Shown one piece after another: positions 2,822 through 28,180 of a stretch of DNA of 28,180 bases. The DNA is taken from IMG/VR virus record IMGVR_UViG_3300027622_000002, positions 1 to 28,180 of that record; one strand, 5' to 3'. Made by a program: the position numbers and the translations under genes. A model generated the notes under the pieces. That model had not been told where the DNA came from and did no database searches. It saw nothing but the letters and a program-made list of their open reading frames with translations. The stretch comes from a virus. Each line of letters begins with the position of its first letter. The first letter of the stretch is position 1.

Positions 2822-3442
2822 TTATTTACTGTAAAAGTGTGTTATGCAATACCTACCTAATCCTTTGTTTTTATATTCTTCTTCCATTTGTATTTCCGTT
2901 ACCTCATGTAAATAATAACTTGGAAACATTAACATTCTATTATGTATACATTCAACTGTTTCATTTGATTCAGAGAATATTAAATTTCCACCTTTGAATC
3001 TTTTTGGTTCTTTATAAAACCACACAAACACAGTATGCATAAATGAATCAAAATGTTCACCATAATTATGTGAATCATCATAATAATTAATTAAGGTACA
3101 ATCACTACCAGTTATTTCAAATTGTTTACCTGCCGGTGTAGTCTTTTTATAATTCTCTATAACTTCTTTTGATATTATTTTTCTATATGCTGTTAATATA
3201 TTTGAATGTTGTCTATCATCAGGAAATGGATATAGTTCTTCCAAATAAATTCTTTTTAAATTTGCTAATGGCTTATCATCTTTTGTAGCAACACCTTGTC
3301 CATTTGTCTTAGTATCTACTTTAAATAAGTGCTGATACGATTCGAGCTCTTTCCAAATTAAATCTTGTTCAGTTGATGTATAAAAATTATCAACTAATAA
3401 AAAAGGAAATGCTTTATTTTTTGTACATGATATAAATTTCAT
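2822..3442 (-). CDS. 2OG-Fe(II) oxygenase, prolyl-4-hydroxylase-like (206 aa)
   Basis: A non-haem Fe(II)/2-oxoglutarate dioxygenase fold is indicated by H130-x-D132 (NYGEHFDSF), GGNLIF at 151-156, the distal histidine H179 (YYLHEV) and R197 (GLGRYC), which would bind the 2OG carboxylate. This is the His-Asp...His plus Arg set of the P4H-like superfamily. The family hydroxylates peptides, nucleobases or small molecules, and no substrate can be read from the sequence. It sits between a glycine-rich tip gene and fibre genes, so hydroxylation of a fibre or a host surface target is a guess. The ribosome site is weak. Confidence 0.85.
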   Translation of the reverse strand: MKFISCTKNKAFPFLLVDNFYTSTEQDLIWKELESYQHLFKVDTKTNGQGVATKDDKPLANLKRIYLEELYPFPDDRQHSNILTAYRKIISKEVIENYKKTTPAGKQFEITGSDCTLINYYDDSHNYGEHFDSFMHTVFVWFYKEPKRFKGGNLIFSESNETVECIHNRMLMFPSYYLHEVTEIQMEEEYKNKGLGRYCITHFYSK

Positions 3443-3454
3443 TTATTTAATTTA

Positions 3455-4297
3455 TTATCCTGGCTGTGACATATTATATCTTATAACAACAATCCCAGAA
3501 CCACCAGCTCCCGTTCCACCGACTCCTCCTCCGCCAGTATTAAGTTCTCCATGAAAACTTGTACTACTACCTCCGCCGCCTTGACCGCCCGCGCCTCGAG
3601 TTTGGATTCCATAATGACCTGTACTTCCTCCTCCACCTCCTCCATACCAAATACCAGTACCAGTTCTATAAGCGTTTTGTAAACCATCGCCGCCTGCCCC
3701 CGAAGAAGTCCGGCCACTAGGTCCACCCGGTTGACCAGCGCCGCCACCCGCGCCACCGCCACCTTGACTACCACTATCTCTATCAGAACTTGAGCCACCC
3801 GGATTTCCTTGACCCGGTGTCCCTGCTGATCCACCGATTCCGCCGTGATTTCCAGTATTTGCTCCCCCGCCTGAACCACCAACTTGTGCTGACGTGCCTC
3901 CGCCAATTGAAGCAGTTGATGTAATTATATTTGAAGGAATGACAGAGCTCTGACCATTTACTCCTGTCGCAGAGCCAGCTGTCACTAGAACAGTTCCCGA
4001 ACCTTCTGCAATAGCTAAACCTGTTTGTACAACCATCCCACCTGCGCCGCCACCTCCACCAAAAAAACCACCTTCTGGTGAGCTCGTCGACGGATTTCCA
4101 CCACCTCCGCCGGATACAACCATAACATCAACAAGACCTTCATTGCTAGCGGTTAACGTGCCTGTAGTAAGAAAGGTACAAGACTTATAATTAACTCCTC
4201 CAACACTATAAAAATTCTCTTGCCCACCTCCACTACATTCAAGCTCAAAACTTGATCCAGCTCTACCTATATGTTGCGGGGATAATAAAAAACTCAT
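3455..4297 (-). CDS. Glycine-rich tail-fibre tip / adhesin-like protein (280 aa)
   Basis: ATG 4297 is preceded by AAAGG. From about residue 58 (DVMVVSGGGGG) the protein is a succession of polyglycine runs separated by short S/T/N/Q segments. It ends in GGSGIVVIRYN, the typical closing strand of glycine-rich domain phage proteins. The pattern recalls the polyglycine II sandwich of T4-like gp38 adhesins, though this arrangement fuses the domain to its own N-terminus. Host-receptor binding is inferred. The gene is locally GC-richer than its neighbours because glycine codons (GGN) dominate. Confidence 0.75.
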   Translation of the reverse strand: MSFLLSPQHIGRAGSSFELECSGGGQENFYSVGGVNYKSCTFLTTGTLTASNEGLVDVMVVSGGGGGNPSTSSPEGGFFGGGGGAGGMVVQTGLAIAEGSGTVLVTAGSATGVNGQSSVIPSNIITSTASIGGGTSAQVGGSGGGANTGNHGGIGGSAGTPGQGNPGGSSSDRDSGSQGGGGAGGGAGQPGGPSGRTSSGAGGDGLQNAYRTGTGIWYGGGGGGSTGHYGIQTRGAGGQGGGGSSTSFHGELNTGGGGVGGTGAGGSGIVVIRYNMSQPG

Positions 4298-4301
4298 TTA
4301 A

Positions 4302-5390
4302 TTAAACCTTTCCGTTTAGTGTGAATCTAACACCTCCACCGGCAGTGGAACTTCCAACCTGTGTAGTCTTAAATGTAATTCTATCACCCGATACAAAACT
4401 TACGTTTGAAGGATTCAAAATACCATTAGTCAACGAATTTGAACCACTACCAAAAATTGGTTTTGTTGAATAAATTGATGAACCATTTTTTAATATATCT
4501 AAAATCATAGTAGTACCTGTTGGTGCGGTATCAGCATAACCTTCTTCTCCAACGAACGATCCCGAACGAGACATAACCAACTGACCATAATTGCCCGGTG
4601 CGGTCATCTCTATTACTGCCATCTCCGCATCATACCCACCAGTGAAAGCCATATCATAAGGAAGATTGAATATTAGACTTCCATCAAGTGCAGGTAATGC
4701 ACCAGTTAATTTAGTTGCTTGCATATCAACAATTTTAATATCAGTTACTTGTTGATCCCCAATCTTTATAGTACTAACAGCATTAGTTGCCAATTTCTGT
4801 TCTGTAACATTACTATCTAAAATTTTAATTGTCGTTATAGCATTAGTTGTAATTTTATCACCATCAATTGTATTGTCTGGAATCTTATCACCCGTTACAG
4901 CATTGTCAATAATTTTTCCAGTCGTTATAGCATCGTTTATAATCTTATCATTTGTTATTGCATCATCAACAATTTTTAAAGATGTTATTGCATTATCAAC
5001 AATTTTTAAAGATGTTACCGTATTGTCAGCCAATTCAGTTCCTGTTATTGCATTGGCTATAATTTGTGCATTTGCAACAGTACCAGAAAGATCACCACCG
5101 ACAACAGCTGTTGATGCATCCACCGTAGTAAAAGATAAACTACCTGCACCATCAGTTTGAAGTACTTGGTTAAGAAGTCCATCTTGTAAATCTAATTCTA
5201 CAATACCAATTTTATTAACAAGATCAACATTAGATAAATCTTCACGTGCCAATGGAAAGCCTTTTATAGTATTACCATCATGGACAACTACAGTAGCCTT
5301 ATCCAAATCAATAGTAATTTCACCCTCAGCACCAATAAAGGTATTATGTTCTACTGTTGTGCCCCTTCGTCTTTTGACTAGCTTTGCCAT
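4302..5390 (-). CDS. Tail fibre with Mtd_N-like N-terminus and tandem decapeptide shaft (362 aa)
   Basis: ATG 5390 has AAGGA upstream. Residues 3-50 (LVKRRRGTT..., FIGAEGEITIDLDK, VVVHDG, GFPLAR) match the N-terminal domain seen in major-tropism-determinant-type proteins, used to attach to the virion. Residues 101-220 are twelve in-register 10-residue units, mostly (x)DNAIT-x-x-KI, ending in KI or a close variant. Residues 240-362 form a beta-rich C-terminal domain that is probably the tip. It is a modular receptor-binding fibre. No template/variable repeat pair or reverse transcriptase is visible, so diversity-generating activity is not indicated. Confidence 0.85.
   Translation of the reverse strand: MAKLVKRRRGTTVEHNTFIGAEGEITIDLDKATVVVHDGNTIKGFPLAREDLSNVDLVNKIGIVELDLQDGLLNQVLQTDGAGSLSFTTVDASTAVVGGDLSGTVANAQIIANAITGTELADNTVTSLKIVDNAITSLKIVDDAITNDKIINDAITTGKIIDNAVTGDKIPDNTIDGDKITTNAITTIKILDSNVTEQKLATNAVSTIKIGDQQVTDIKIVDMQATKLTGALPALDGSLIFNLPYDMAFTGGYDAEMAVIEMTAPGNYGQLVMSRSGSFVGEEGYADTAPTGTTMILDILKNGSSIYSTKPIFGSGSNSLTNGILNPSNVSFVSGDRITFKTTQVGSSTAGGGVRFTLNGKV
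4731..5060 (-). repeat. Eleven tandem 30-bp coding repeats (decapeptide shaft)
   Basis: Codons 111-220 of the fibre gene form eleven consecutive 30-bp units with no indels. Each encodes a variant of xDNAITxxKI; codons 101-110 look like a degenerate twelfth unit. The DNA copies are diverged, while the frame and period are strictly kept. Confidence 0.9.
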
Positions 5391-5393
5391 TGC

Positions 5394-5597
5394 TTATATC
5401 CTTTTTTTATTGTCATTCTGTAACTGACGTATTGTTTTCTTTAATTCTTCAACATCATTTACCAAAGTATTTATAACATTTATTTCTGATTCTTTTTGCT
5501 TCTTCGCCATCCGATAATTATCCAAAGCTATTCTATCACTTTGCAAAATAGCCTTTGAATTTTTATCTCTTATATATTTTGTTTGTTCAACTTCCAT
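5394..5597 (-). CDS. Small coiled-coil protein (67 aa) between baseplate and fibre genes
   Basis: The protein is strongly helical and charged. The C-terminal half (VINTLVNDVEELKKTIRQLQND) has heptad hydrophobics (I, L, V, L, I, L) and predicts a coiled coil. The N-terminal LQSDRIALDNYRMAKKQ also looks helical. Short coiled-coil proteins at this place occur in T4-like marine phages, and a trimerising or chaperone-like role in fibre assembly is possible but unproven. The ribosome site upstream of ATG 5597 is poor, and the ATG lies 2 nt from the preceding stop, suggesting translational coupling. Confidence 0.7.
   Translation of the reverse strand: MEVEQTKYIRDKNSKAILQSDRIALDNYRMAKKQKESEINVINTLVNDVEELKKTIRQLQNDNKKRI
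5468..5475 (-). promoter_or_regulatory. Possible T4-type late promoter box inside the coiled-coil gene
   Basis: The minus strand reads TATAAATA 78 nt before the ATG of the 362-aa fibre gene. It lies within coding sequence, so it may be a chance match in AT-rich DNA. Confidence 0.3.
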
Positions 5598-5598
5598 A

Positions 5599-8500
5599 TT
5601 AAGCTAATGCAATAACTCGAAGATCCCTAATCAAAGGTACTCTTGTCGTATTAGCAGATGTCATTACAACTTTGATTGCAAAGGTTTTAAATGAATTATA
5701 AGTAACAAGATTCGAAATATAATTTGCGTTAATACCAGCAGGTGAAAATTCTAATTCTAAATATTCTATATCTGCATCAGATCCAGAAACAGAATTAAGA
5801 TTTGATACTTCACCCATTTCTGTCCAAGGTCTATTATCAAAAGTGTCCGTATCAAATTGTGATAGGACTTTATAATAAACTGTTATAGTACTTCCTGCTT
5901 CTCTGATTGCAGTTAGATGTACATTTAAATCAGTTGCATCAAATCCATCTTTAAGATTAACCCGTCTTGTAATATATCTTGCAATTGAATTTCCACCTTC
6001 CGCATCAGTCTCGTTTGTCGTGTCATTATTTATAAGATTCTCAATAGTAATTACACTATTCCTTGCTGTATCAATAACAGGTGAAATATGTGAATTATTA
6101 CTTGTCATAATTGCTCTTGCTTCATAACTTCCCGCGCCTGTAGTTATTCTTCTTTGTGCAGCTAACTTATGATTTGTTTTTTGAACAACATTCGTATACT
6201 CTGCATCCAAAGTAACCGAACCAACATCAGTAAGTTTTACACCCCAATTAATCGAAGTATTATTCATCACAATCTCTTCAGGTACAATCTGAATAATATC
6301 TGCTTTATATTCTACTGGTGAAGTGCCGTCTCTAAATACTGCATATGAAGTTGTATTAATAGTATAATCAGCTCTGTTAATTTTAAAAGTCAAATCCTGA
6401 TTTTGATTAGGAGTCCATGTAGAAGCATTTTGTGATTTAAATAATGAACCCGCATAGGGTTGTGAAGAAACTTTTCTATTAGTACCAATTATATTTTCAC
6501 CATGCTCAGCAATATATGCTTCGTATTTTAAACTATTACTTAATACAACAATTGCATATTCACCGGGCTGCAAATAAACCAAGCCAGGAAATGTAAACTT
6601 CGTTGCCACGCTTGCATCTTCACTAGTATTAACTAGATCAGGAGTTAAGCTAACATCAGAAAATGGTAAAACACTTTGTGCAGGATATCCATTTAGTGTA
6701 TCCCTAATCTGTAATGAGACTGGCAAACCATCTGAATCTTTTGTTTTGAAATACAAATCAACATCACTAATAAATATACCATCTGGGTATAATGTCTGAT
6801 CAACCAAAAATGTTTCTGCCAGAGGATCAACCCATCCAATAATATTTGATCTTGTAAATGTATTTGATTGTGTTCTGAAGTCTGTTGCTGAACCCATACC
6901 AAATTGTTGTACTCTTGGAACCCTCGTTGCAACAATAACATTTTCTTGTGTTTGTAATAACCCCTGTGCTTGATATGTTACCTCTGCATAGGTTGAAGCA
7001 GTAATTAAATCACCTTGTATATTATCAACTAAAAGAAATTGTCGCTCACCAGTTCTAAATCTTATTGTATTAGAATTTGGAATTGAAAAAGTTAGATTAC
7101 TAATTGAACCAGAATCATCAGTATAGATATCATCAGCCATAACACCACCGGACGGTGTACAATATAACGCCACATCTTCACTATCAAAGAATGGATAAAC
7201 TTTTGTATTAGGTTTCATTCCTGTTACAGATATAATTACATCTCTTGCTCTAATAAAAGGAATGATGGAAACATCAACAACTCTATCACCAATACTATTT
7301 CGAACAGTATCAACACCAGTGATTTCATTTCTGATACCTGTTCGTGTTTGTAGTACCTGATTGATAACTGTTTGATCTCGTACAACAGCTAGACCTGCTC
7401 GTCTGACACTAGATGCAGTAACAGTTTCCCTCCCTGTACCATTAATAGTTTCCCAGTCATTAAATTGTGAACCAAATCCTAAACCAACTAAAGCAGCCCA
7501 GCCATCATTTTCACCTTGTAGATTAACAACAACATCTGGCCTAGTAGTTGTATCAATCCAATTGTCGTTTGGTGGATCTAATTCAACTACTCCGATCCAT
7601 GCCAATACAGCAAAGGGATTAATATTAACAGATTTACTTGCCGTAGGCTGATCAATGAATTCCTTAATAGTATATGGCAAGGTAATTAAATCACCTGTCT
7701 TTTGTACACCAACCGAATCAGGTGCTACCATATATAATAGGTCTGTAAGGTTTGATGCAAAAGGTGGTCTTAATATTTTAGCATCAAAATCAATTGAACA
7801 TTTATAGTCAGGTGATAATATATTACCAATACTATGACCATTAAAACTATCAACTAAAATACCATTTTTAAATCTATCTAATCCAGCCGTATCTTTTATT
7901 ACTAATGATTCGGCTTCCTTTTCAAGTAATGAAAGTGAAGTATAATATTCAACATTACTTAATCGCTTTTCTAATTTACCAATGTCCCTCATCGTATATC
8001 GTTTGTTCTCAATATATAATGCCTGAACATCTTTTGCTTTAAATGTATAAGCAGGAATAAAGATAGTATATAAATCCATTGTTCCATTTAATCGGTATGG
8101 AGGTATTTCATGTAATGATGAAACACCTTGATTTACACCAAATACTTTTTCTCTACTTAAATAAACATTATCTACTCTTGGAAGATAATAACTATAATCA
8201 GCAGACCAGTTAGTATTAGGATATGGCAATTCTATATTTTGTAAAGCAGTTCCACCATCTACCCTTCTCGGTCTAAAATCTACACAATCACGTAGCTCTA
8301 CTGTATCACCAGTTACAGGACTTGTAAATGCTGGAACGGCATCATATCCAACTGCTGAAGTATATGAATCAGTAGAAAGATAACCCACACCTGCATGTGT
8401 AAAATAATCAAACACAATTGTAATTCTTCCAACCGGAGCAGTCTGATCTGCTTTTAATTTTATTCTTCCATGATCATAAAAATTATCTCGTTGACCATCA

Positions 8501-12379: not shown

Positions 12380-12387
12380 TATTTATA
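12380..12387 (-). promoter_or_regulatory. T4-type late promoter box (TATAAATA) before gp8
   Basis: The minus strand reads TATAAATA in the 83-nt gap, 41 nt upstream of the gp8 ATG. A TTGACA hexamer lies 14 nt upstream of it, too close for a good sigma70 pair. The noncoding position and the late gene downstream favour a real late promoter. Confidence 0.65.
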
Positions 12388-14508: not shown

Positions 14509-16419
14509 TTAGATTGTCTCTGCTACCATATTAATAACAATTGCTTCTGTGTCATTAACATCATAAGTTAATATCTGTTCTCTTAAAGGAGTAATGTCAC
14601 TATTATTATATGTTGGTGTTACAGTTATTTTAATATAATCATTACCATCTGTAATAGTGACTGGTCGGAAACTATTCAATATAACCTTTCCTGTAGCATA
14701 ATCAATAGTTCCATAATCAGTTGAACCATCCGGTAAAATAAATAAATCTAACAATTGACTTTCAGTGTCATGTACATCTACAGCATAATGATATTCGCCA
14801 GTATGTAAAACACTAGATTCTCTAATATGTACGGGTCCTGTCCAAACCCCACCACTATTTAATTTAACTGCTTTAATATTTCCAATAGTATCATCAACCA
14901 AAGTATATGTATATCCATCAGTAGCAATAAAAGAACTACTAATAAGATTCCCATGCTGCAAGGCATTATTAAAATTCAAAGTATATGTAATTGGTGTATC
15001 TAATGTTTCAATAGCAATCCTTTGCTGATACCTCATAGTTGTTCTATTATTTCTTATGCTATCATTTGTATTATCAATATCCTGTGTCAGCATAGAATAT
15101 CTAAACTTCTGATCAAATTTTTCTAAATTCGTTTGATGATAATTCTGTATAGAAGTATTGATATTAGTCTTCAATGTATTTTCATCAGTTAGATTTGTAA
15201 CAGGATCATAGTTCACAGTAGTATTTAATAGTAAGTAAATAAATATCGGATCAATGATTACAGGTATAACCGTAACAACATTTGATTGTTTAAGTATACT
15301 TTTTTCAATTGCTGCCTTTGCAACATTAGTAAAGACATTATTCCCCGAAGGCTTTACTGCAATAAAAACTTTTCCATATTGAACCGGATCTGCATCCTCA
15401 CCACCATATGCCGTAATAGATTCAATGTCTGGACGCTGCTCTAAAAGAATAGCTTTATAATCATCCCTCGTAGTTGCCCTATTTTGTGCTTGATATAATT
15501 TTGGAGCTTGGAATTTTAAAGAGGTAGTTGTTTGAATATCAGCACCACCTGTCGCCTCGGTATTTGTGGTTAAAATATAATCCGCAGATGTTAATGTGGC
15601 TACCGAACCAACAGCAGTAAATACACTTGCCTTGTTTGCAAGTGTCCCACCAGTAACAATATATTCAATAAAGATAATATTGCCATCCGATAGTTGTTTG
15701 CCTACAGCACCATCGCCAAATGTGATTTCATATTTTCTTCCTTCTATTTCTTGTAGAAAGAAAACCTTATCCGTTCCCTTGATAGTTGTAACATCAATTG
15801 CATTGCCATCCGTATAGATATTAGTATCTGTATCAGAATCAGAATTCTGAACAACTACACTAATAGTAGAAGCATCTACATTTACATTTGGAATAATAAA
15901 CCGTTGAGCAGTATCCTCTGAATCAACCGTATATGATTTATTTAATATCTTTCCTTCTTTAATCTCGACACCCGTTGCCACATAAGAACCATCACCCGCT
16001 CGTGGAACATTTGTAGTTATATTAGTTACAAACGTATAACTTGTTCCATCAATGCTAGTAGTAAATTTTGTATCCTTTGCAATCGTAAGTGACGTTGGTG
16101 CTCCTGATGGTGTGAATGTAAAATTAAGTTCTGCCGTAGGTGTCTTAACTGATGTTGGGGTTACACCTAAATGCTTTGCATGTGATACAACTGAATCCCT
16201 TAAAGAGGAACTATCCATAAACATTTCATTACCAAGCATGTTGGCATAGTATCCAGTATAGTGTGTATTGTAAGCTAATATATCAATCAACACACTCATA
16301 CCAGAACCTTCAAAATCATAATCCTGAAAATCATCCTGTGCTGATAGATAAGCTTTTAAATTAGATTTGATCTCATCAAATTCTAAGTCAGTTACTTTAA
16401 TCTTATTTGAAGTTGCCAT
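14509..16419 (-). CDS. 6: Baseplate wedge protein gp6 (636 aa, J-like)
   Basis: ATG 16419 is preceded by GAGAGG. The N-terminus ITVTDLEF-type start (KIKVTDLEFDEIKSNLKAYL), then DYDFEGSGMSVLIDILAYNTHY and ANMLGNEMFMDSSSLRDSVVSHAKHLG (about residues 36-85), are diagnostic of gp6/baseplate J-like proteins. RATTRDDYKAILLEQRPDIESITAYGGED (about 318-346) is the second conserved block. Its length is close to T4 gp6 (660 aa). It forms the iris-like inner ring of the baseplate together with gp25 and gp7. It lies 1 nt downstream of gp25. Confidence 0.93.
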   Translation of the reverse strand: MATSNKIKVTDLEFDEIKSNLKAYLSAQDDFQDYDFEGSGMSVLIDILAYNTHYTGYYANMLGNEMFMDSSSLRDSVVSHAKHLGVTPTSVKTPTAELNFTFTPSGAPTSLTIAKDTKFTTSIDGTSYTFVTNITTNVPRAGDGSYVATGVEIKEGKILNKSYTVDSEDTAQRFIIPNVNVDASTISVVVQNSDSDTDTNIYTDGNAIDVTTIKGTDKVFFLQEIEGRKYEITFGDGAVGKQLSDGNIIFIEYIVTGGTLANKASVFTAVGSVATLTSADYILTTNTEATGGADIQTTTSLKFQAPKLYQAQNRATTRDDYKAILLEQRPDIESITAYGGEDADPVQYGKVFIAVKPSGNNVFTNVAKAAIEKSILKQSNVVTVIPVIIDPIFIYLLLNTTVNYDPVTNLTDENTLKTNINTSIQNYHQTNLEKFDQKFRYSMLTQDIDNTNDSIRNNRTTMRYQQRIAIETLDTPITYTLNFNNALQHGNLISSSFIATDGYTYTLVDDTIGNIKAVKLNSGGVWTGPVHIRESSVLHTGEYHYAVDVHDTESQLLDLFILPDGSTDYGTIDYATGKVILNSFRPVTITDGNDYIKITVTPTYNNSDITPLREQILTYDVNDTEAIVINMVAETI

Positions 16420-16420
16420 C

Positions 16421-16834
16421 CTATCTTAACCTCTCTAAAAATAATTCAATCGTTACGGGACTAGGCGTACTGATCGGTTGAAATTTTATTGTTACATAAT
16501 AACCATTTTTATCTATGTCACCTAATACTCTTATGTCTAGTAATTTAACTCTTGGTTCAAAGTTAGTAAGTACTTGTCTTATCTCAGATTGTAAAACAAC
16601 AGCAGTAGTAGGAGATACCAATTCAAATAATATACCTGTAATGCCACTTCCAATTTCTGGATGAAATGGTCTTTCATGGGGATTAGTCAATACAAGATTT
16701 CTTACAGACCTCTTGATAGCTTCAACATCTCTTTTTAATACTATATCTTTAGTAACAGGATGAGCTATAAAATCTAAATCAAGATCAGCCCAGCGCCTAG
16801 TATTAGTTGAAAGTGGTTTTGTATATACTGCCAT
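16421..16834 (-). CDS. 25: Baseplate wedge protein gp25 (137 aa)
   Basis: This is a GPW/gp25 family protein. VRNLVLTNPHERPFHPEIGSGI (about residues 45-66) is the classic conserved block, followed by FELVSPTTAVVLQSEIRQVLTNFEPRVKL. The length fits T4 gp25 (132 aa). It nucleates the sheath and links wedge to hub. Its ATG overlaps the TAA of the upstream 47-aa gene (TAATG), with an AAGGGAAGAG ribosome site inside that gene, so translation is probably coupled. Confidence 0.95.
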   Translation of the reverse strand: MAVYTKPLSTNTRRWADLDLDFIAHPVTKDIVLKRDVEAIKRSVRNLVLTNPHERPFHPEIGSGITGILFELVSPTTAVVLQSEIRQVLTNFEPRVKLLDIRVLGDIDKNGYYVTIKFQPISTPSPVTIELFLERLR

Positions 16835-16977
16835 TAGCGTCTCTTCCCTTGTCCTCTATATTTTTTCCAGCTTCGTCTTTTATGTTTATTCTTTGGTCTG
16901 CTTCTGGTTGGGTGATTACCAATAGAGGTAACATGCTTAATCTTATCTCGTTTAACTATTGCTTTATATACTGCCAT
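16834..16977 (-). CDS. Very small, highly basic protein (47 aa) between gp25 and its upstream gene
   Basis: The frame reads from ATG 16977 to TAA 16834. The start overlaps the stop of the upstream gene (TAATG) and the stop overlaps the gp25 ATG in the same manner. The protein begins MAVYKAIVKRDKIKHV, and its last 20 residues are nearly all basic or aromatic (NKHKRRSWKKYRGQGKRR). No acidic residue follows D11. Double stop/start coupling with gp25 argues for real expression. A nucleic-acid-binding role or assembly cofactor is possible, but function is unknown. Confidence 0.75.
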   Translation of the reverse strand: MAVYKAIVKRDKIKHVTSIGNHPTRSRPKNKHKRRSWKKYRGQGKRR

Positions 16978-17474
16978 TATTTTTTAAGTTTCTTATCTGC
17001 TACTTGAAGTGCAATATCAGGACGCTTCTCAATGAATGTAGTTTCAAGACCTAGCTTAGGTTTATGTACAGTAAGTTCAAATCCCTTACTAGTTAAAATA
17101 AATTCTTTAATTTCCCAGCCTTTCTTTTTTAAAGATAGGATAGGTTTCTCATCTGTCTTATCCAGCATACCAATCTTAACTGCTGCTTTGAAATTAAAGC
17201 TAGGCTTGTATGCTTCATTCATTGCTTCACCATGTCGAATCCAACCTTCAACCTTTACCCATTGCATAGCTTTTCCTTTACTACCTTGTTGAGCTTTTTT
17301 AAAATCCTTCTCATCATCAAAGATGGAAAACTCTTGGTGCTCGACACTATAACCAAGTACCTGTCCTACATCAAGTGCTTTAAGAAATTGCGATGCTTCT
17401 TTCTTCGTATTCCTATCCTTAATGTCAGACCATTTCTTGGGCTTTGCTTCAATTAGACTCTTATACGTTTTCAT
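16977..17474 (-). CDS. Late protein of unknown function (165 aa), MKTYKSLIEA start
   Basis: The chosen start is ATG 17474 because GGGAGAG lies 7 nt upstream; an in-frame ATG at 17495 lacks a ribosome site. A TATAAATA box ends 35 nt before it. The protein is lysine-rich with alternating beta and helix predictions (KALDVGQVLGYSVEHQEFSIFDDE). It has no signal peptide, membrane segment or known catalytic motif. The N-terminus MKTYKSLIEA resembles short leaders common among T4-like phage proteins. It heads the gp25-gp6 cluster, so a virion or assembly role is possible. Confidence 0.7.
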   Translation of the reverse strand: MKTYKSLIEAKPKKWSDIKDRNTKKEASQFLKALDVGQVLGYSVEHQEFSIFDDEKDFKKAQQGSKGKAMQWVKVEGWIRHGEAMNEAYKPSFNFKAAVKIGMLDKTDEKPILSLKKKGWEIKEFILTSKGFELTVHKPKLGLETTFIEKRPDIALQVADKKLKK

Positions 17475-17508
17475 ATTCTCTCCCTGTTTAAACATAGATC
17501 CCTCTGTA

Positions 17509-17516
17509 TATTTATA
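17509..17516 (-). promoter_or_regulatory. T4-type late promoter box (TATAAATA) before the 165-aa gene
   Basis: The minus strand reads TATAAATA 35 nt upstream of ATG 17474, overlapping the last codons of the Coq4-like gene. This is the proximal of two copies 20 bp apart. Confidence 0.6.
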
Positions 17517-17958
17517 AGACTTCTTCTATATTTATACCCCATATATTTCTTATAGTTTTGACATCCTGTGATACATCAAAACAAGCAAGATGTATATTCT
17601 TCTTCTCCCGTGAACGGCCATAAGCATATCCCATTTCATACTCCGCCAGATCATTTGGTGTAAAACGATACCCCTCTGGATATAGATATCTTACACAAAA
17701 CTCAAACAACCATTTGACCCAAGGCTTAGTCGTTTCACTATTACCCATAGTGAATCCAATCACCACCGCTTCGTCTTTAACTTCCATACCCCTGTTTAAA
17801 AGGATATGGATGATGTCATGGTGATAGAGGTCTATCGCCCCCGTTAAACTGATAGGTGATTTTGGATTTTCCAATAACCATACAAACCAATGAATCCCTG
17901 ATTGCTTCTTATAAGTCTCTTGATCTCTCCAGCGGTCTATCGCCTTCTGTAAATTCAT
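17512..17958 (-). CDS. Coq4-like protein with complete HDxxH-x11-E metal motif (148 aa)
   Basis: ATG 17958 has GAAGAGGA at a good distance and a TATAAATA box 25 nt upstream. Residues H47-D48-x-x-H51 and E63 form HDxxH-x(11)-E, the exact zinc-ligand spacing of Coq4, the ubiquinone-biosynthesis protein (human H163, D164, H167, E179). EAVVIGF after the Glu and AYGRSREKKN...FDVSQDVKTIRNIWGI near the C-terminus also resemble the Coq4 family. Cellular Coq4 proteins are usually over 200 aa, so this is a compact version. Homology is inferred from the motif and layout; whether it touches quinones or serves as a virion or assembly protein is open. Confidence 0.7.
   Translation of the reverse strand: MNLQKAIDRWRDQETYKKQSGIHWFVWLLENPKSPISLTGAIDLYHHDIIHILLNRGMEVKDEAVVIGFTMGNSETTKPWVKWLFEFCVRYLYPEGYRFTPNDLAEYEMGYAYGRSREKKNIHLACFDVSQDVKTIRNIWGINIEEVL
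17529..17536 (-). promoter_or_regulatory. Second TATAAATA box, 20 bp upstream of the first
   Basis: This is an identical octamer inside the 3' end of the Coq4-like gene. The paired spacing may mean two late start sites, or one real and one chance match. Confidence 0.4.
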
Positions 17959-17982
17959 AGATTCCTCTTCTATTTTTCCCTA

Positions 17983-17990
17983 TATTTATA
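17983..17990 (-). promoter_or_regulatory. T4-type late promoter box (TATAAATA) before the Coq4-like gene
   Basis: The minus strand reads TATAAATA in noncoding DNA, 25 nt upstream of ATG 17958. It marks the right-hand end of the late virion region. Confidence 0.65.
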
Positions 17991-23195: not shown

Positions 23196-23426
23196 TTATG
23201 ATCCTCCTAGGGTTGTGTAGTCTACAGTCTCTGATCCTCCTAATTGCTCACAGGCATGGGATTCATCAAAGAGCTTCATTTGTTTGTCTATTTCTTTTAA
23301 TGGTAATCCTTTTCCTTCTTTAGTCTTCCATATATGTTCTATTAATACATGGGTTAAATGGTGTAGTCTATCGTTCTCTTGTTGTAATAATTCAATTTCC
23401 TTTGTATCAGAATAGGTAGTTGTCAT
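23196..23426 (-). CDS. Small coiled-coil-like protein (76 aa)
   Basis: The start overlaps the stop of the upstream oxygenase gene (ATGA). The N-terminal half (TKEIELLQQENDRLHHLTHVLIEHIW) is a leucine-rich amphipathic helix, probably a coiled coil; the end is flexible and Gly-rich. It may be a partner of the oxygenase just upstream, but nothing proves it. Confidence 0.65.
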   Translation of the reverse strand: MTTTYSDTKEIELLQQENDRLHHLTHVLIEHIWKTKEGKGLPLKEIDKQMKLFDESHACEQLGGSETVDYTTLGGS

Positions 23427-24085
23427 GGTCTCCTCCGATCAATTACGTTTTCAGTTGGATGACCTAGATAGGGTCTACCATCAAATATTGTATTCCCATT
23501 AGGTCCATCCTTATCAGTCCAATGGAAGAATACTTGTGCTACGTATTCTCCTTTATAGGGTTCTCTCCAGTGTTCATGTTCTCTTCCTTGGTATATTACT
23601 CCATCTCCGGATTCTAGATTGAATTCTTCTCCACTTATATAGATTGGCCATGGTTTTTCAGGGCTTTGTCCTAGGCATATGGATAGGGTTACCTCACAGT
23701 CTTCTCTATCTATATGTTTTTCTAGGCTATTGCCGTGTTCATACAGGGAAAAATAGGAGTAATTAGGGTTGAGGTTGAGTTGGGTTATCTCTTCTACGAT
23801 AGGGGTAAAGGTATCTAGGAGGTCTTCCATGATTAGATTGCCATACATGGAGTAGGCGACGGAGGAATGGTCTTTCCTATAGTAACCATATCGCTCTGGG
23901 TCGGCTAATACTACGTCTTCTCCCTTGTGTTTTATGGCTAATCGGTAGCGACGATGGCATTTCATTATATGGTCGGTTAATAGGTCTCTTACATCCTTCT
24001 CCATCATATTCTTCATTAGGAAGAAATCACATATTTTAGTACTCATTTCCTTCAATTGTCCTGATAAGAACGTTGTATCATGCAT
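23423..24085 (-). CDS. 2OG-Fe(II) oxygenase family protein (220 aa)
   Basis: ATG 24085 follows GAGGTAAAAC. The C-terminal half has the double-stranded beta-helix marks: NYSYFSLYEHGNSLEKHIDRE with H124-x-D126, then LESGDGVIYQGREHEHWREPY with distal H172 (or H170) and VAQVFFHWTD. The N-terminal 100 residues are helical. This subtype, with a Y-x-G-x-E-HWR distal motif, is common in marine phages and their hosts and differs in sequence from the other two oxygenases in this window. The substrate is unknown. Confidence 0.8.
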   Translation of the reverse strand: MHDTTFLSGQLKEMSTKICDFFLMKNMMEKDVRDLLTDHIMKCHRRYRLAIKHKGEDVVLADPERYGYYRKDHSSVAYSMYGNLIMEDLLDTFTPIVEEITQLNLNPNYSYFSLYEHGNSLEKHIDREDCEVTLSICLGQSPEKPWPIYISGEEFNLESGDGVIYQGREHEHWREPYKGEYVAQVFFHWTDKDGPNGNTIFDGRPYLGHPTENVIDRRRP

Positions 24086-24926: not shown

Positions 24927-25262
24927 TTAAGTTGCTTTACCTATTTTCTCCAACATCTCTCCCATACGAGTACATATGATCTTCAATATAGGTATGAGAG
25001 CCTTGGGATTATGCTCTATGAATAACGGCGCATCTTCAGGTTTAATAACATATAGATGACAATCAGTATTGGCTTTAACCGTAGCAGTTCTAGGTATATG
25101 TTGTAACCATCCTATCTCGCCGAAGATCGAATGTTTCTCTAATATACATAATTGTATATCATTCTTCAGGACTTCAACTTCGCCTGACTCAATGATATAG
25201 GCTTCCCTATCGGTATCGCCATCTTTAATAATTATATCACCCTTCTTATAAAACTTTATCAT
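24927..25262 (-). CDS. Stand-alone cyclic-nucleotide-binding domain protein (111 aa)
   Basis: ATG 25262 follows GAGGTG. The whole protein is one CAP_ED/cNMP-binding beta-roll: KKGDIIIKDGDTDREAYII at the start, ESGEVEV at about 25-31, and the phosphate-binding cassette FGEIGWLQHIPRTATV (47-62), with E49 and R58 at the canonical nine-residue distance. The C-terminal helices follow, but there is no helix-turn-helix, channel or kinase domain. Family members bind cAMP or cGMP; here the domain could sense or sequester the host's cyclic nucleotides. Function beyond binding is inference. Confidence 0.85.
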   Translation of the reverse strand: MIKFYKKGDIIIKDGDTDREAYIIESGEVEVLKNDIQLCILEKHSIFGEIGWLQHIPRTATVKANTDCHLYVIKPEDAPLFIEHNPKALIPILKIICTRMGEMLEKIGKAT

Positions 25263-25270
25263 AATTCACC

Positions 25271-25873
25271 TCATCCCATAGTCCAAAATGACTCCTTACG
25301 AGTAACGGACGTGACTAAATGTACACGATCCTGTTCACCGCCATTAAATTGGCTATGATAAAATATAGTATTCGTGTACCATGCTCTACCTATTGGTAGA
25401 TGTTTGACTTCATCTTCAATAACCATCTTGGCTCCTATATTGGTAACAATAGGTACATGAAGTCGTGGCTCTGGATCTCTATGCCAAGATAAACAATTCC
25501 TCGGAACGGATTTAATCAATCGTACCCTACCCAATTGACCCTCATATTGTTGACTAACAAATTCTCGTAGGGTATCATAGACTATCCTGAAATAGGTATG
25601 ATTTATCTCGGGTATAAACGTACAATAATCCCGTTCATCTAATTCCTGTTGACGTATTACCTCTTGTCCATCTACCATAGTTCGGTATATACCACCACTT
25701 CCCTCATAGAAACAATCAGGAGCTGATTGACCCTCTCTCTTGGTCAAGCATATCTGATGGTATTTCTTATGTATAGATTCTTTCGGCCATGGAGCAATCT
25801 CTTCTACCTGTTTAAGAGCCTCAACCAATTTTAATTCATCGAATATAACCGGTAGTTTTGTAAAGTATTTCAA
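25271..25873 (-). CDS. Aspartyl/asparaginyl beta-hydroxylase-like Fe/2OG protein (200 aa)
   Basis: The start appears to be TTG 25873, overlapping the endolysin stop (TTGA), with GGGGA upstream; no in-frame ATG occurs before residue 66. LSWHRDPEPRLHVPI (128-142) gives H131-x-D133, and DRVHLV (182-187) gives the distal H185, while GRAWYTNTIFYHSQFNGG fits the Asp/Asn beta-hydroxylase cupin pattern. It is therefore a third Fe(II)/2OG-type enzyme. The substrate may be a protein side chain or small molecule and cannot be read here. Confidence 0.75.
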   Translation of the reverse strand: MKYFTKLPVIFDELKLVEALKQVEEIAPWPKESIHKKYHQICLTKREGQSAPDCFYEGSGGIYRTMVDGQEVIRQQELDERDYCTFIPEINHTYFRIVYDTLREFVSQQYEGQLGRVRLIKSVPRNCLSWHRDPEPRLHVPIVTNIGAKMVIEDEVKHLPIGRAWYTNTIFYHSQFNGGEQDRVHLVTSVTRKESFWTMG

Positions 25874-26474: not shown

Positions 26475-27031
26475 TACTTTGTTTTGCTCATGGCAGCTAA
26501 AGGATTCTCTAATGCTTTAGTAATCTTCTTATCTAATTTCTTCTCGAGATTCTCTATCTGTGTATCTACCTTAGTCAATTTATCGTCCCACCTTTTAGAG
26601 GTTTGTGTGATTAAATCCCTTACTTCATTCTCTGCGTTTCTCATAGCTGTTCTAGTCTCTAAGCCATCTTCTCTTGATCGCTTATCAATATTAGCTATCT
26701 GATCATGTTGTGAATTAACCTCATTCTTTATATCTGTACGTATATCCCTCGCTGTTTCCTGTGCAGCATTTACAAGTTCCTTTAATGCATCAACCTCAGT
26801 ACTTAGAACTTTTAATTCTTTATTTAATTTCGTATCAAATACCTCTAATCGTGTATTAAATCCGGATAGATCAGGTTCCTTGTACTCGCTTACCAGTTTT
26901 TCCATATCCTCATATCGCTTAAACAATTCAAATCCACCCCATAATCCAGCAACAATTGTACCTATCAATGGAAATATAAGTATCCACTTAGTACCGGATA
27001 TATGAAGTCCCTTATATTCTAGTTCAGCCAC
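26474..27031 (-). CDS. Membrane-anchored coiled-coil protein (185 aa), possible lysis-associated
   Basis: The start is GTG 27031 inside the end of the HAD gene, with AGGGG at a good distance. Residues 16-36 (WILIFPLIGTIVAGLWGGFEL) are one transmembrane span, followed by about 140 residues of charged coiled coil with regular heptads (LEVFDTKLNKELKVLSTEVDALKELV, VDTQIENLEKKLDKKI). Similar anchor-plus-coil proteins occur near endolysins in T4-like marine phages. An i-spanin or holin-related role is plausible but unproven. Confidence 0.7.
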   Translation of the reverse strand: MAELEYKGLHISGTKWILIFPLIGTIVAGLWGGFELFKRYEDMEKLVSEYKEPDLSGFNTRLEVFDTKLNKELKVLSTEVDALKELVNAAQETARDIRTDIKNEVNSQHDQIANIDKRSREDGLETRTAMRNAENEVRDLITQTSKRWDDKLTKVDTQIENLEKKLDKKITKALENPLAAMSKTK

Positions 27032-27542
27032 TTATCATCCCCTTTAATTCTTTAATAGTCTTAATCGCGGATTTATGTACTATACCAAGACCACCAGCTG
27101 ATTCAAAATCCCTTGTATTCCTTATATGGTCATCAATCAATATATGATTAGGTGCAGCAAACTTCTTCTTATCCTTTCTCTGTACTATATTAACTTTAGA
27201 GGGTGATGGTTTACAATGTTTCTTAATCCATGCTTTCTTTCCTTCCATAACCGCTTTATCATTACGACAAATGGATGGACAAGCTGAGAGTATCTCTATA
27301 TTATATTGACTTATGTATTTCCATAGGGTCTTTTGATCAGGTAAAGGATCTAATGCTACCCACCATCCCTTAGAAGTACCAGCATCAGTTAATAATACCT
27401 TATCTATATCGCCTTGTTCAAACTCTTTCTTTCCTAGATGTCTCGCGATACCGCCTAAGAAATTAGTCAATACACCATCCATATCACAAAAAATAGTGAT
27501 ATCATCCTTCTTAAGTTTTTTAAATTCTTTAAATGTTATCAT
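27024..27542 (-). CDS. 5'(3')-deoxyribonucleotidase-like HAD hydrolase (172 aa)
   Basis: Start ATG 27542 is preferred because the upstream 42-aa gene ends 1 nt before it; a longer frame to 27581 lies inside that gene. MITFKEFKKLKKDDITIFCDMDGVLTNF carries HAD motif I (D20-x-D22-G-V-L); ILSACP holds the motif II Ser (S86); ILIDDHIRNTRDFESAGG gives the motif IV acidic pair (D137, D138). This fits the NT5C-type phosphatase that removes phosphate from dNMPs. Phage versions may tune nucleotide pools. Substrate assignment is by family. Confidence 0.82.
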   Translation of the reverse strand: MITFKEFKKLKKDDITIFCDMDGVLTNFLGGIARHLGKKEFEQGDIDKVLLTDAGTSKGWWVALDPLPDQKTLWKYISQYNIEILSACPSICRNDKAVMEGKKAWIKKHCKPSPSKVNIVQRKDKKKFAAPNHILIDDHIRNTRDFESAGGLGIVHKSAIKTIKELKGMISG

Positions 27543-27543
27543 A

Positions 27544-27672
27544 TTAACTAAATTTCTTATTAACCCATTTATAAAATACATACAATCCCATCAATAATAT
27601 GATATAGATGATACCATCAAACCACGGAATTTCATTTAGAAAATCAGCGGTATCACCAGTTAACTCAACCAT
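27544..27672 (-). CDS. Small single-span membrane protein (42 aa)
   Basis: The frame runs from ATG 27672 to TAA 27544. An acidic head (MVELTGDTADFLNEIPWFDG) precedes a hydrophobic span (IIYIILLMGLYVF) and a basic end (KWVNKKFS), which suggests N-out/C-in topology. It overlaps the end of the preceding 49-aa gene and abuts the HAD gene. Consistent packing and topology support it. Function unknown; it is one of several tiny membrane genes in this operon. Confidence 0.65.
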   Translation of the reverse strand: MVELTGDTADFLNEIPWFDGIIYIILLMGLYVFYKWVNKKFS

Positions 27673-27809: not shown

Positions 27810-27916
27810 AGTCTTACTCCATATAATTTAGCCATCCGGTTATAATAAGTTTCGTGTATAAACGATTCATCAGGAAAGTGGTGAAGTTTTAGTACGTTCT
27901 GCAATTTGTTCTTCAT
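27806..27916 (-). CDS. Short overlapping gene (36 aa) at the end of the NifU-like gene
   Basis: ATG 27916 to TGA 27806 encodes a peptide starting MKNKLQNVLKLHHFPDESF and ending NRMAKLYGVRL. It overlaps the last 47 nt of the NifU-like frame in another frame and its stop overlaps the next ATG (ATGA). The amino-acid sequence looks like real protein and occupies the gap before the next gene. The ribosome site (GGTGG) is weak. Alternatively it is the C-terminus of a frameshifted NifU-like product. Confidence 0.5.
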   Translation of the reverse strand: MKNKLQNVLKLHHFPDESFIHETYYNRMAKLYGVRL

Positions 27917-28180
27917 ATGTTTTACCACCAAACGGATGCTGTGTACCAAATCGATTAGTCATTTCATCTTCCACTTCTTTCATACCATAAGCATTGGTTG
28001 GTATAACAACAGCCTCTGGAAATACATTCTGTTGTATTGCACGTTCTATTCCTGCTAATGTTGCACCAGCTGATGATGGACAATGACCACATGCTCCTTG
28101 AAATGAAATAACTACTTCATTACCCTTAACTAAATCCAATTCAATATCACCACCATCACTCACAAGAGCAGGACGAATTG
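27870..28180 (-). CDS. NifU C-terminal-domain Fe-S protein, 5' end cut by window edge
   Basis: The frame stays open to the right edge. Its first visible residues IRPALVSDGGDIELDLVKGN are the conserved beginning of the NifU C-terminal (Nfu) domain, so the true start lies outside; a GTG at 28163 falls inside the motif and is not the start. GACGHCPSS supplies the CxxC pair that holds a transient [4Fe-4S] cluster. A 40-residue tail (MKEVEDEMTNRFG...) follows the domain. Such proteins carry clusters to target enzymes; in a phage it may support Fe-S enzymes during infection. Confidence 0.88.
   Translation of the reverse strand, partial: IRPALVSDGGDIELDLVKGNEVVISFQGACGHCPSSAGATLAGIERAIQQNVFPEAVVIPTNAYGMKEVEDEMTNRFGTQHPFGGKTYEEQIAERTKTSPLS

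Follow-up and report, generated by a model that had tools for sequence, protein, structure and literature searches.

A near-core, putatively late gene of uncultured T4-like phages encodes a candidate metal-binding protein of the Coq4 superfamily

The window analyzed here, the whole 28,180-nucleotide stretch of the IMG/VR virus record IMGVR_UViG_3300027622_000002, harbors on its minus strand an open reading frame of 148 amino acids that starts with ATG (N-terminus MNLQKAIDRWRDQ). Its product is referred to as COQ4L, the name used here for this Coq4-superfamily protein. In accordance with the preliminary description of this DNA, the gene lies in a baseplate neighborhood, as the genes of gp25 (PF04965) and gp6 (PF21379, phrog_219) were identified downstream of it (Table 1). 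For the 172-aa ORF located in between, no significant match was found in Pfam, PHROG or NCBIfam. Elsewhere in the window, the minus strand encodes a 97-aa protein with a NifU-like domain (27870-28163, PF01106, 2e-13), which is a candidate phage-borne Fe-S scaffold; in a contig of a SAR11 SAG (L074) a full Nfu gene is found directly downstream of COQ4L. A stand-alone cyclic-nucleotide-binding domain of 111 aa (24927-25262, PF00027, 6e-18), three oxygenase-like genes (2822-3442, 23423-24085 and 25271-25873; 2OG-Fe(II) oxygenase PF13640, weak PF13532 and aspartyl/asparaginyl hydroxylase PF05118) and an NT5C-type 5'-nucleotidase (27024-27581, PF06941), relatives of which adjoin COQ4L in many sister phages, were also detected on this strand.

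Table 1. Features of the COQ4L locus, with positions as numbered in the window.
Feature	Position	Strand	Evidence or remark
T4-type late-promoter-like box TATAAATA	17983..17990	-	24 nt before the COQ4L ATG; position suggestive
Ribosome-binding-site-like AAGAGG	17964..17969	-	Read off the sequence, before the COQ4L ATG
COQ4L coding sequence, 148 aa	17512..17958	-	ORF; conserved family in IMG/VR and GTDB; dN << dS; AlphaFold pLDDT 93
HDIIH-x11-E, putative metal site, codons 47-63	17770..17820	-	Sole six-frame occurrence; in register with true Coq4
EAVVIGFTMG, codons 63-72, signature separating the COQ4L family from Coq4	17743..17772	-	65-row alignment
172-aa ORF between COQ4L and gp25	16977..17495	-	Relatives near COQ4L in other phages
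Baseplate wedge gp25	16421..16834	-	PF04965 1.1e-12; phrog_261 3e-44
Baseplate wedge gp6, synteny anchor	14509..16419	-	phrog_219 1e-159; PF21379

Between phages, COQ4L showed a dN of 0.20-0.30 with saturated dS, and a dN/dS of ~0.24 was obtained for the comparison with its closest relative. Since dN is low relative to the saturated dS, COQ4L is a real gene, and it is under strong purifying selection. The residues of the HDxxH-x11-E pattern, which had been reported for the 148-aa ORF before, were in place (H47, D48, H51 and E63), and the pattern HD..H.{11}E occurred a single time in the full six-frame translation of the window. The late-promoter box reported upstream of the gene was likewise found, although nine copies of TATAAATA in the window are not above chance (6.2 +/- 2.5 expected). 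Because the minus strand carries eight of these nine and several copies shortly precede ORFs (copies at 17529 and 17509 the 172-aa ORF, at 12380 gp8 and at 1744 a 107-aa ORF), a T4-type late promoter upstream of COQ4L appears plausible.

As a single sequence COQ4L had no match in Pfam, NCBIfam, PHROGs or the PDB; tblastn against INPHARED gave nothing useful, with no match among 50,697 named phage records. With iterated searches of IMG/VR and GTDB, relatives were recovered on ~60 viral contigs and 34 genome contigs, the cellular hosts being cyanobacteria (mostly Nostoc), Planctomycetes, Spirochaetes, Nitrospinae, a Silvanigrellales MAG, Cellvibrio and a SAR11 SAG. One contig binned in an Acidimicrobiaceae MAG (L076, PBHE01000047.1) is this phage itself, with 100% identity over the compared genes. 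In a 65-row alignment E30, G40, H47, D48, H51, A64, V66, I67, G68, T70, M71 and G72 were invariant and E63 was kept in at least 90% of the rows, so that the catalytic-looking residues form the most conserved part. The proteins constitute a distinct, unnamed family with the signature HDxxHxLL followed by EAxVIGFTMG. The bacterial homologues (Nostoc, Cellvibrio, Pirellula, Leptospirales, Nitrospinae and the plasmids CP108401 and AP018319) are uncharacterized and, where annotated, are called 'hypothetical protein'. They share the signature and 33-45% identity over the domain with COQ4L, but differ from it in that they are mostly longer (~145-260 aa), are located on chromosomes or plasmids and in many cases carry a C-terminal tail ending in S.RL. 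Their occurrence is rare and patchy (1/398 Proteobacteria, 9/343 genomes of the order of Cellvibrio, 2/199 Planctomycetes). In a quick tree with many weak forks, window-type phages clustered together, and a second group of phages (L016-L024) joined the SAR11 SAG and a Nitrospinae sequence; therefore at least two COQ4L lineages are held by phages. A Streptomycetaceae plasmid (L172, CP108401.1) contains two family-matching places that are probably arranged in tandem, with a gene for an AarF/UbiB-type kinase adjacent to them; as this is a single case, it was not considered a functional link.

In the literature, the Coq4 metal-ligand motif is given as HDxxH-x10-13-E, and the metal site of Alr8543 (PDB 6e12) is assigned to H120, D121, H124 and E136 (PMC9774615). 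COQ4L carries this motif, which aligned column for column with that of 35 true Coq4 sequences. The Pfam profile PF05019 did not match COQ4L at an E-value of 1, nor at 10 when the record was searched. With the gathering cut-off of PF05019 (22.9 bits) as the threshold for Coq4 membership, the entire family remained below it: the best score was 19.4 bits (E 7e-4, a Spirochaete member, L097), two further members matched weakly, and all matches began at profile position 101 or beyond, the N-terminal half (positions 1-100) being missing. An HMM of the COQ4L family in turn matched true cyanobacterial Coq4 proteins among 692 ORFs (L161, 3e-7; L154, 2e-6; L156, 9e-6), the HD..H and E positions being in register and the alignment extending to the C-terminal LR..LG. 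Profile-profile comparison with hhalign yielded P 1e-7 (score 53) for 41 phage rows and P 1.9e-9 (score 67) for the cellular rows, each against 36 Coq4 sequences, whereas 60 column shuffles per set and reversed alignments reached at best P 0.04 and scores of at most 18.6. Thus the proposed kinship with PF05019 was borne out at the level of profiles and not for the single protein, and the Coq4-identical spacing of the metal site as well as the Coq4-like C-terminal pattern, both asserted earlier, were recovered in register.

It could be argued that the resemblance is convergent, with an unrelated helical protein sharing no more than a short metal motif, as the single sequence matched neither Pfam, NCBIfam nor the PDB and the 65-row profile retrieved no Coq4 chain from the PDB by sequence (CcpA-like PDB matches at E ~1 were attributed to chance). 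However, the shuffled and reversed profiles scored far below the real ones, and the hhalign match spans ~100 residues beyond the motif. The structural data bear on the same question. An AlphaFold model built from the 65 rows was essentially all-helical (pLDDT 93.4, pTM 0.88), with H47, D48 and H51 on a helix formed by residues 44-54 and E63 on the following helix (60-73); an earlier model from seven near-identical rows (pLDDT 42) was discarded. When this model was compared with 350,542 PDB chains using Foldseek, the two Coq4-family entries ranked first (3msq; probability 0.98, E 0.15, TMq 0.57) and second (6e12; probability 0.80, E 0.62, TMq 0.44). Since these E-values are weak and not significant alone, and the superpositions gave an rmsd of 4.5-6 A, the predicted Coq4 fold of COQ4L rests on rank and probability. 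A fold search of BFVD returned no credible viral match. Foldseek E-values above 0.1 would be compatible with convergence, yet both Coq4-family PDB entries top an unbiased fold search, and we regard a convergent origin as highly improbable. The profile comparisons point to common ancestry with the Coq4 proteins, that is, to distant but genuine homology.

COQ4L is nevertheless placed in the Coq4 superfamily and outside the Coq4 family proper, because its family stays under the Pfam threshold, is devoid of the N-terminal half of the Coq4 domain and has EAFVIGFTMG where the Coq4 consensus reads GE.gl.aF.l.Q. Both families (Coq4: PF05019; PDB 6e12, Alr8543, and 3msq, both from Nostoc) have the motif HDxxH-x11-E and a C-terminal half ending in G...G...(F/W)...L..LR..(L)GI. 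Unlike Coq4, the COQ4L family has a conserved N-terminal block of its own, ENPxSP, and has members in genomes that lack UbiG, a true Coq4 being encoded in some of them as well. Literature searches retrieved no publication that describes Coq4 in phages.

The kinship with Coq4 raises the question of a role in ubiquinone synthesis. Among 21 genomes with a member of the COQ4L family, UbiG was detected over the cut-off in eight, six of them proteobacterial and two cyanobacterial, the two latter assemblies probably being contaminated. The other 13 include assemblies of Nostoc, Planctomycetes, Spirochaetes and Nitrospinae. As most bacterial genomes with the family thus have no UbiG over the cut-off, a ubiquinone-pathway role is unlikely. 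Such a role would make COQ4L an auxiliary metabolic gene that performs the C1 oxidative decarboxylation of COQ4 or acts as a scaffold of the host CoQ complex, sustaining respiration during infection. It would account for the homology, motif and predicted fold shared with Coq4; human COQ4 is described as an oxidative decarboxylase (review PMC11495197), the gp6 of the window is nearest to that of phages of Proteobacteria (38% to Pelagibacter phage HTVC008M, the nearest named phage for this clade), and the group-B relatives include a SAR11 SAG with UbiG. Against it, apart from the distribution of UbiG, stand the sub-threshold PF05019 scores, the missing N-terminal half, the family's own motif, the true Coq4 held by genomes such as Nostoc beside the COQ4L family, and the neighbors scanned, among which no other ubiquinone gene was seen. 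We therefore depart from the quinone-pathway role suggested earlier and give it a distinctly low probability. A viral metabolic gene with a ubiquinone-associated name is known in ubiG, an auxiliary metabolic gene of Baltic Sea viruses (PMC9301287); UbiG, however, is a methyltransferase of a family unrelated to COQ4L.

To describe the phage context, IMG/VR relatives of the window gp6 were chosen regardless of COQ4L and those with at least 2.5 kb upstream were retained (n=22). COQ4L was located 0.5-3.2 kb upstream of gp6 on the same strand in 21 of these 22 contigs, and because of this it is near-core in this clade of uncultured T4-like phages; its position upstream of gp25 and gp6, which the preliminary description had proposed to look for in related phages, is thus near-universal there. 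The genes that separate COQ4L from gp25 vary between phages and often include a RimK-type ATP-grasp ligase of ~485 aa (L012:764-2218, with relatives in L039, L043, L047, L049, L051, L053 and L054). A late gene fixed beside gp25 would also be compatible with a structural or assembly role, and recruitment of the Coq4 fold as a structural part or chaperone of baseplate or tail assembly was one of the two options raised in the preliminary description. Besides the near-universal location upstream of gp25 and gp6, the late-promoter-like box speaks for it, as does a phage of the second group (L017) in which COQ4L follows TerL and lies between terminase and a virion-structural gene. The constant association with virion genes, however, holds for the clade of the window and is absent from the bacterial and cassette loci: the position of COQ4L differs between phage groups, being elsewhere after the terminase, in metabolic cassettes or in bacterial genomes, and the bacterial members had no phage genes among the neighbors scanned. 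The ligase inserted in front of gp25 in some phages looks metabolic, and it is the catalytic-looking residues that are most conserved. Since adjacency to gp25 is limited to one phage clade, recruitment to virion assembly is unlikely and COQ4L is probably not a baseplate part.

The other option, an auxiliary metabolic role, is better supported. In three group-B phages (L021, L023 and L024) the gene order is aldehyde dehydrogenase (ALDH), a thioredoxin-like gene, two small ORFs, COQ4L, proline dehydrogenase (ProDH) and a saccharopine-dehydrogenase-like gene, with one extra ORF between COQ4L and ProDH in L023. In L021, where the cassette extends over 3047-8403, ALDH scored 568 bits (PF00171) and ProDH 70 bits (PF01619), and the records of L023 (126 kb) and L024 (108 kb) also contain a T4-type terminase (TerL). 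Further, a window-type COQ4L (L046) has ALDH 21 nt upstream. Across 49 records with COQ4L, whole-record searches detected ALDH in nine and ProDH in six. Neither gene is present in the window or in most window-type contigs, and since the record is a 28-kb fragment, the metabolic link of this phage is drawn by kinship, leaning on relatives at ~40% identity plus L046, L005 and L030. Alpha-ketoglutaric semialdehyde dehydrogenases are closest to the phage ALDH, which scores below every NCBIfam cut-off listed and, in the phage cassette, matches phrog_15577, a group with no function assigned.

Similar partners were found in cellular and other loci. PutA lies 7 nt upstream of the COQ4L homologue in Cellvibrio (L101), is also upstream in L175 and overlaps the homologue in an IMG/VR contig (L060), and ALDH and a saccharopine-dehydrogenase-like gene are upstream in L065. 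The family thus adjoins PutA (Cellvibrio, L060) or, in the three group-B phages, ALDH and ProDH encoded as separate genes; to our knowledge, COQ4L is part of no described PutA system. Most cellular loci have mixed neighborhoods with no consistent neighbors. An ALDH several kb from the Nostoc loci, being one conserved locus on the other strand, was excluded as support. The proline/aldehyde oxidation cassette was not found in named phage genomes, and ALDH/ProDH matches in INPHARED appear to be mostly mislabelled bacterial contigs: Microcystis phage MaAM05 (MW495066.1, L269) carries FliM, PomA, MurJ, BioD and proline dehydrogenase and looks like a bacterial contig deposited as phage. An SMR-family transporter gene abuts the COQ4L homologue in Nitrospinae and four gammaproteobacteria (L075, L176-L179) and is possibly a second functional link of the family.

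The same neighborhoods were considered with respect to a host-takeover or counter-defence protein, in which the Coq4-like site would act on a host metabolite or signal. This idea draws on the occurrence in phages and, patchily, in bacteria (the proteobacterial and planctomycete counts given above), on the Nitrospinae homologue (L075), which is positioned between a SieB-like superinfection-exclusion gene and the SMR transporter gene, and on histidine kinases that adjoin the homologue in some cyanobacteria. Known defence genes, however, were not enriched among the neighbors scanned, and the genes that recur next to the family encode dehydrogenases and SMR transporters, which makes counter-defence a quite unlikely function.

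Most likely, COQ4L is a candidate metal-dependent metabolic enzyme. What auxiliary metabolic genes are recognized by was found for its family, namely cellular homologues (GTDB) and ALDH, ProDH and saccharopine-dehydrogenase neighbors in related phages, the activity itself being predicted. With somewhat better than even confidence, we favor as the best explanation a Coq4-superfamily metal-binding candidate of a distinct family, encoded by a near-core late gene and having a metabolic role rather than one in assembly or ubiquinone synthesis. COQ4L would have been acquired by an ancestor of the uncultured T4-like phage clade and retained as a near-core late gene. The HD-H-E residues may bind a divalent metal for the activation of a small substrate, and the step would probably be a redox reaction or decarboxylation of an amino-acid-derived carboxylate or semialdehyde, which is a reasonable guess because oxidative decarboxylation by COQ4 is the only reported chemistry found for the fold (PMC11495197). 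Such an activity could support energy supply or detoxification during infection. A more far-reaching proposal, which we put forward tentatively and consider rather doubtful, is that COQ4L founds a new family of Coq4-fold enzymes that have proline or aldehyde (semialdehyde) dehydrogenases as working partners. In that case ALDH, ProDH, a saccharopine-dehydrogenase-like protein and COQ4L would form a module for amino-acid oxidation in marine phages, in which COQ4L would either catalyze a metal-dependent reaction of an intermediate resembling a semialdehyde or imino acid, or couple the oxidation to a quinone.

The chemistry of Coq4 in ubiquinone synthesis has long been unsettled. A compact sister family that has the metal site, stands outside ubiquinone pathways and is present in phages and several bacterial phyla may offer a simpler model for the role of this site. 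Within an uncultured phage clade, a near-core gene that escapes detection by Pfam, PHROGs and NCBIfam probably encodes a metabolic enzyme, and its relatives point to a phage-borne cassette for proline/aldehyde oxidation.
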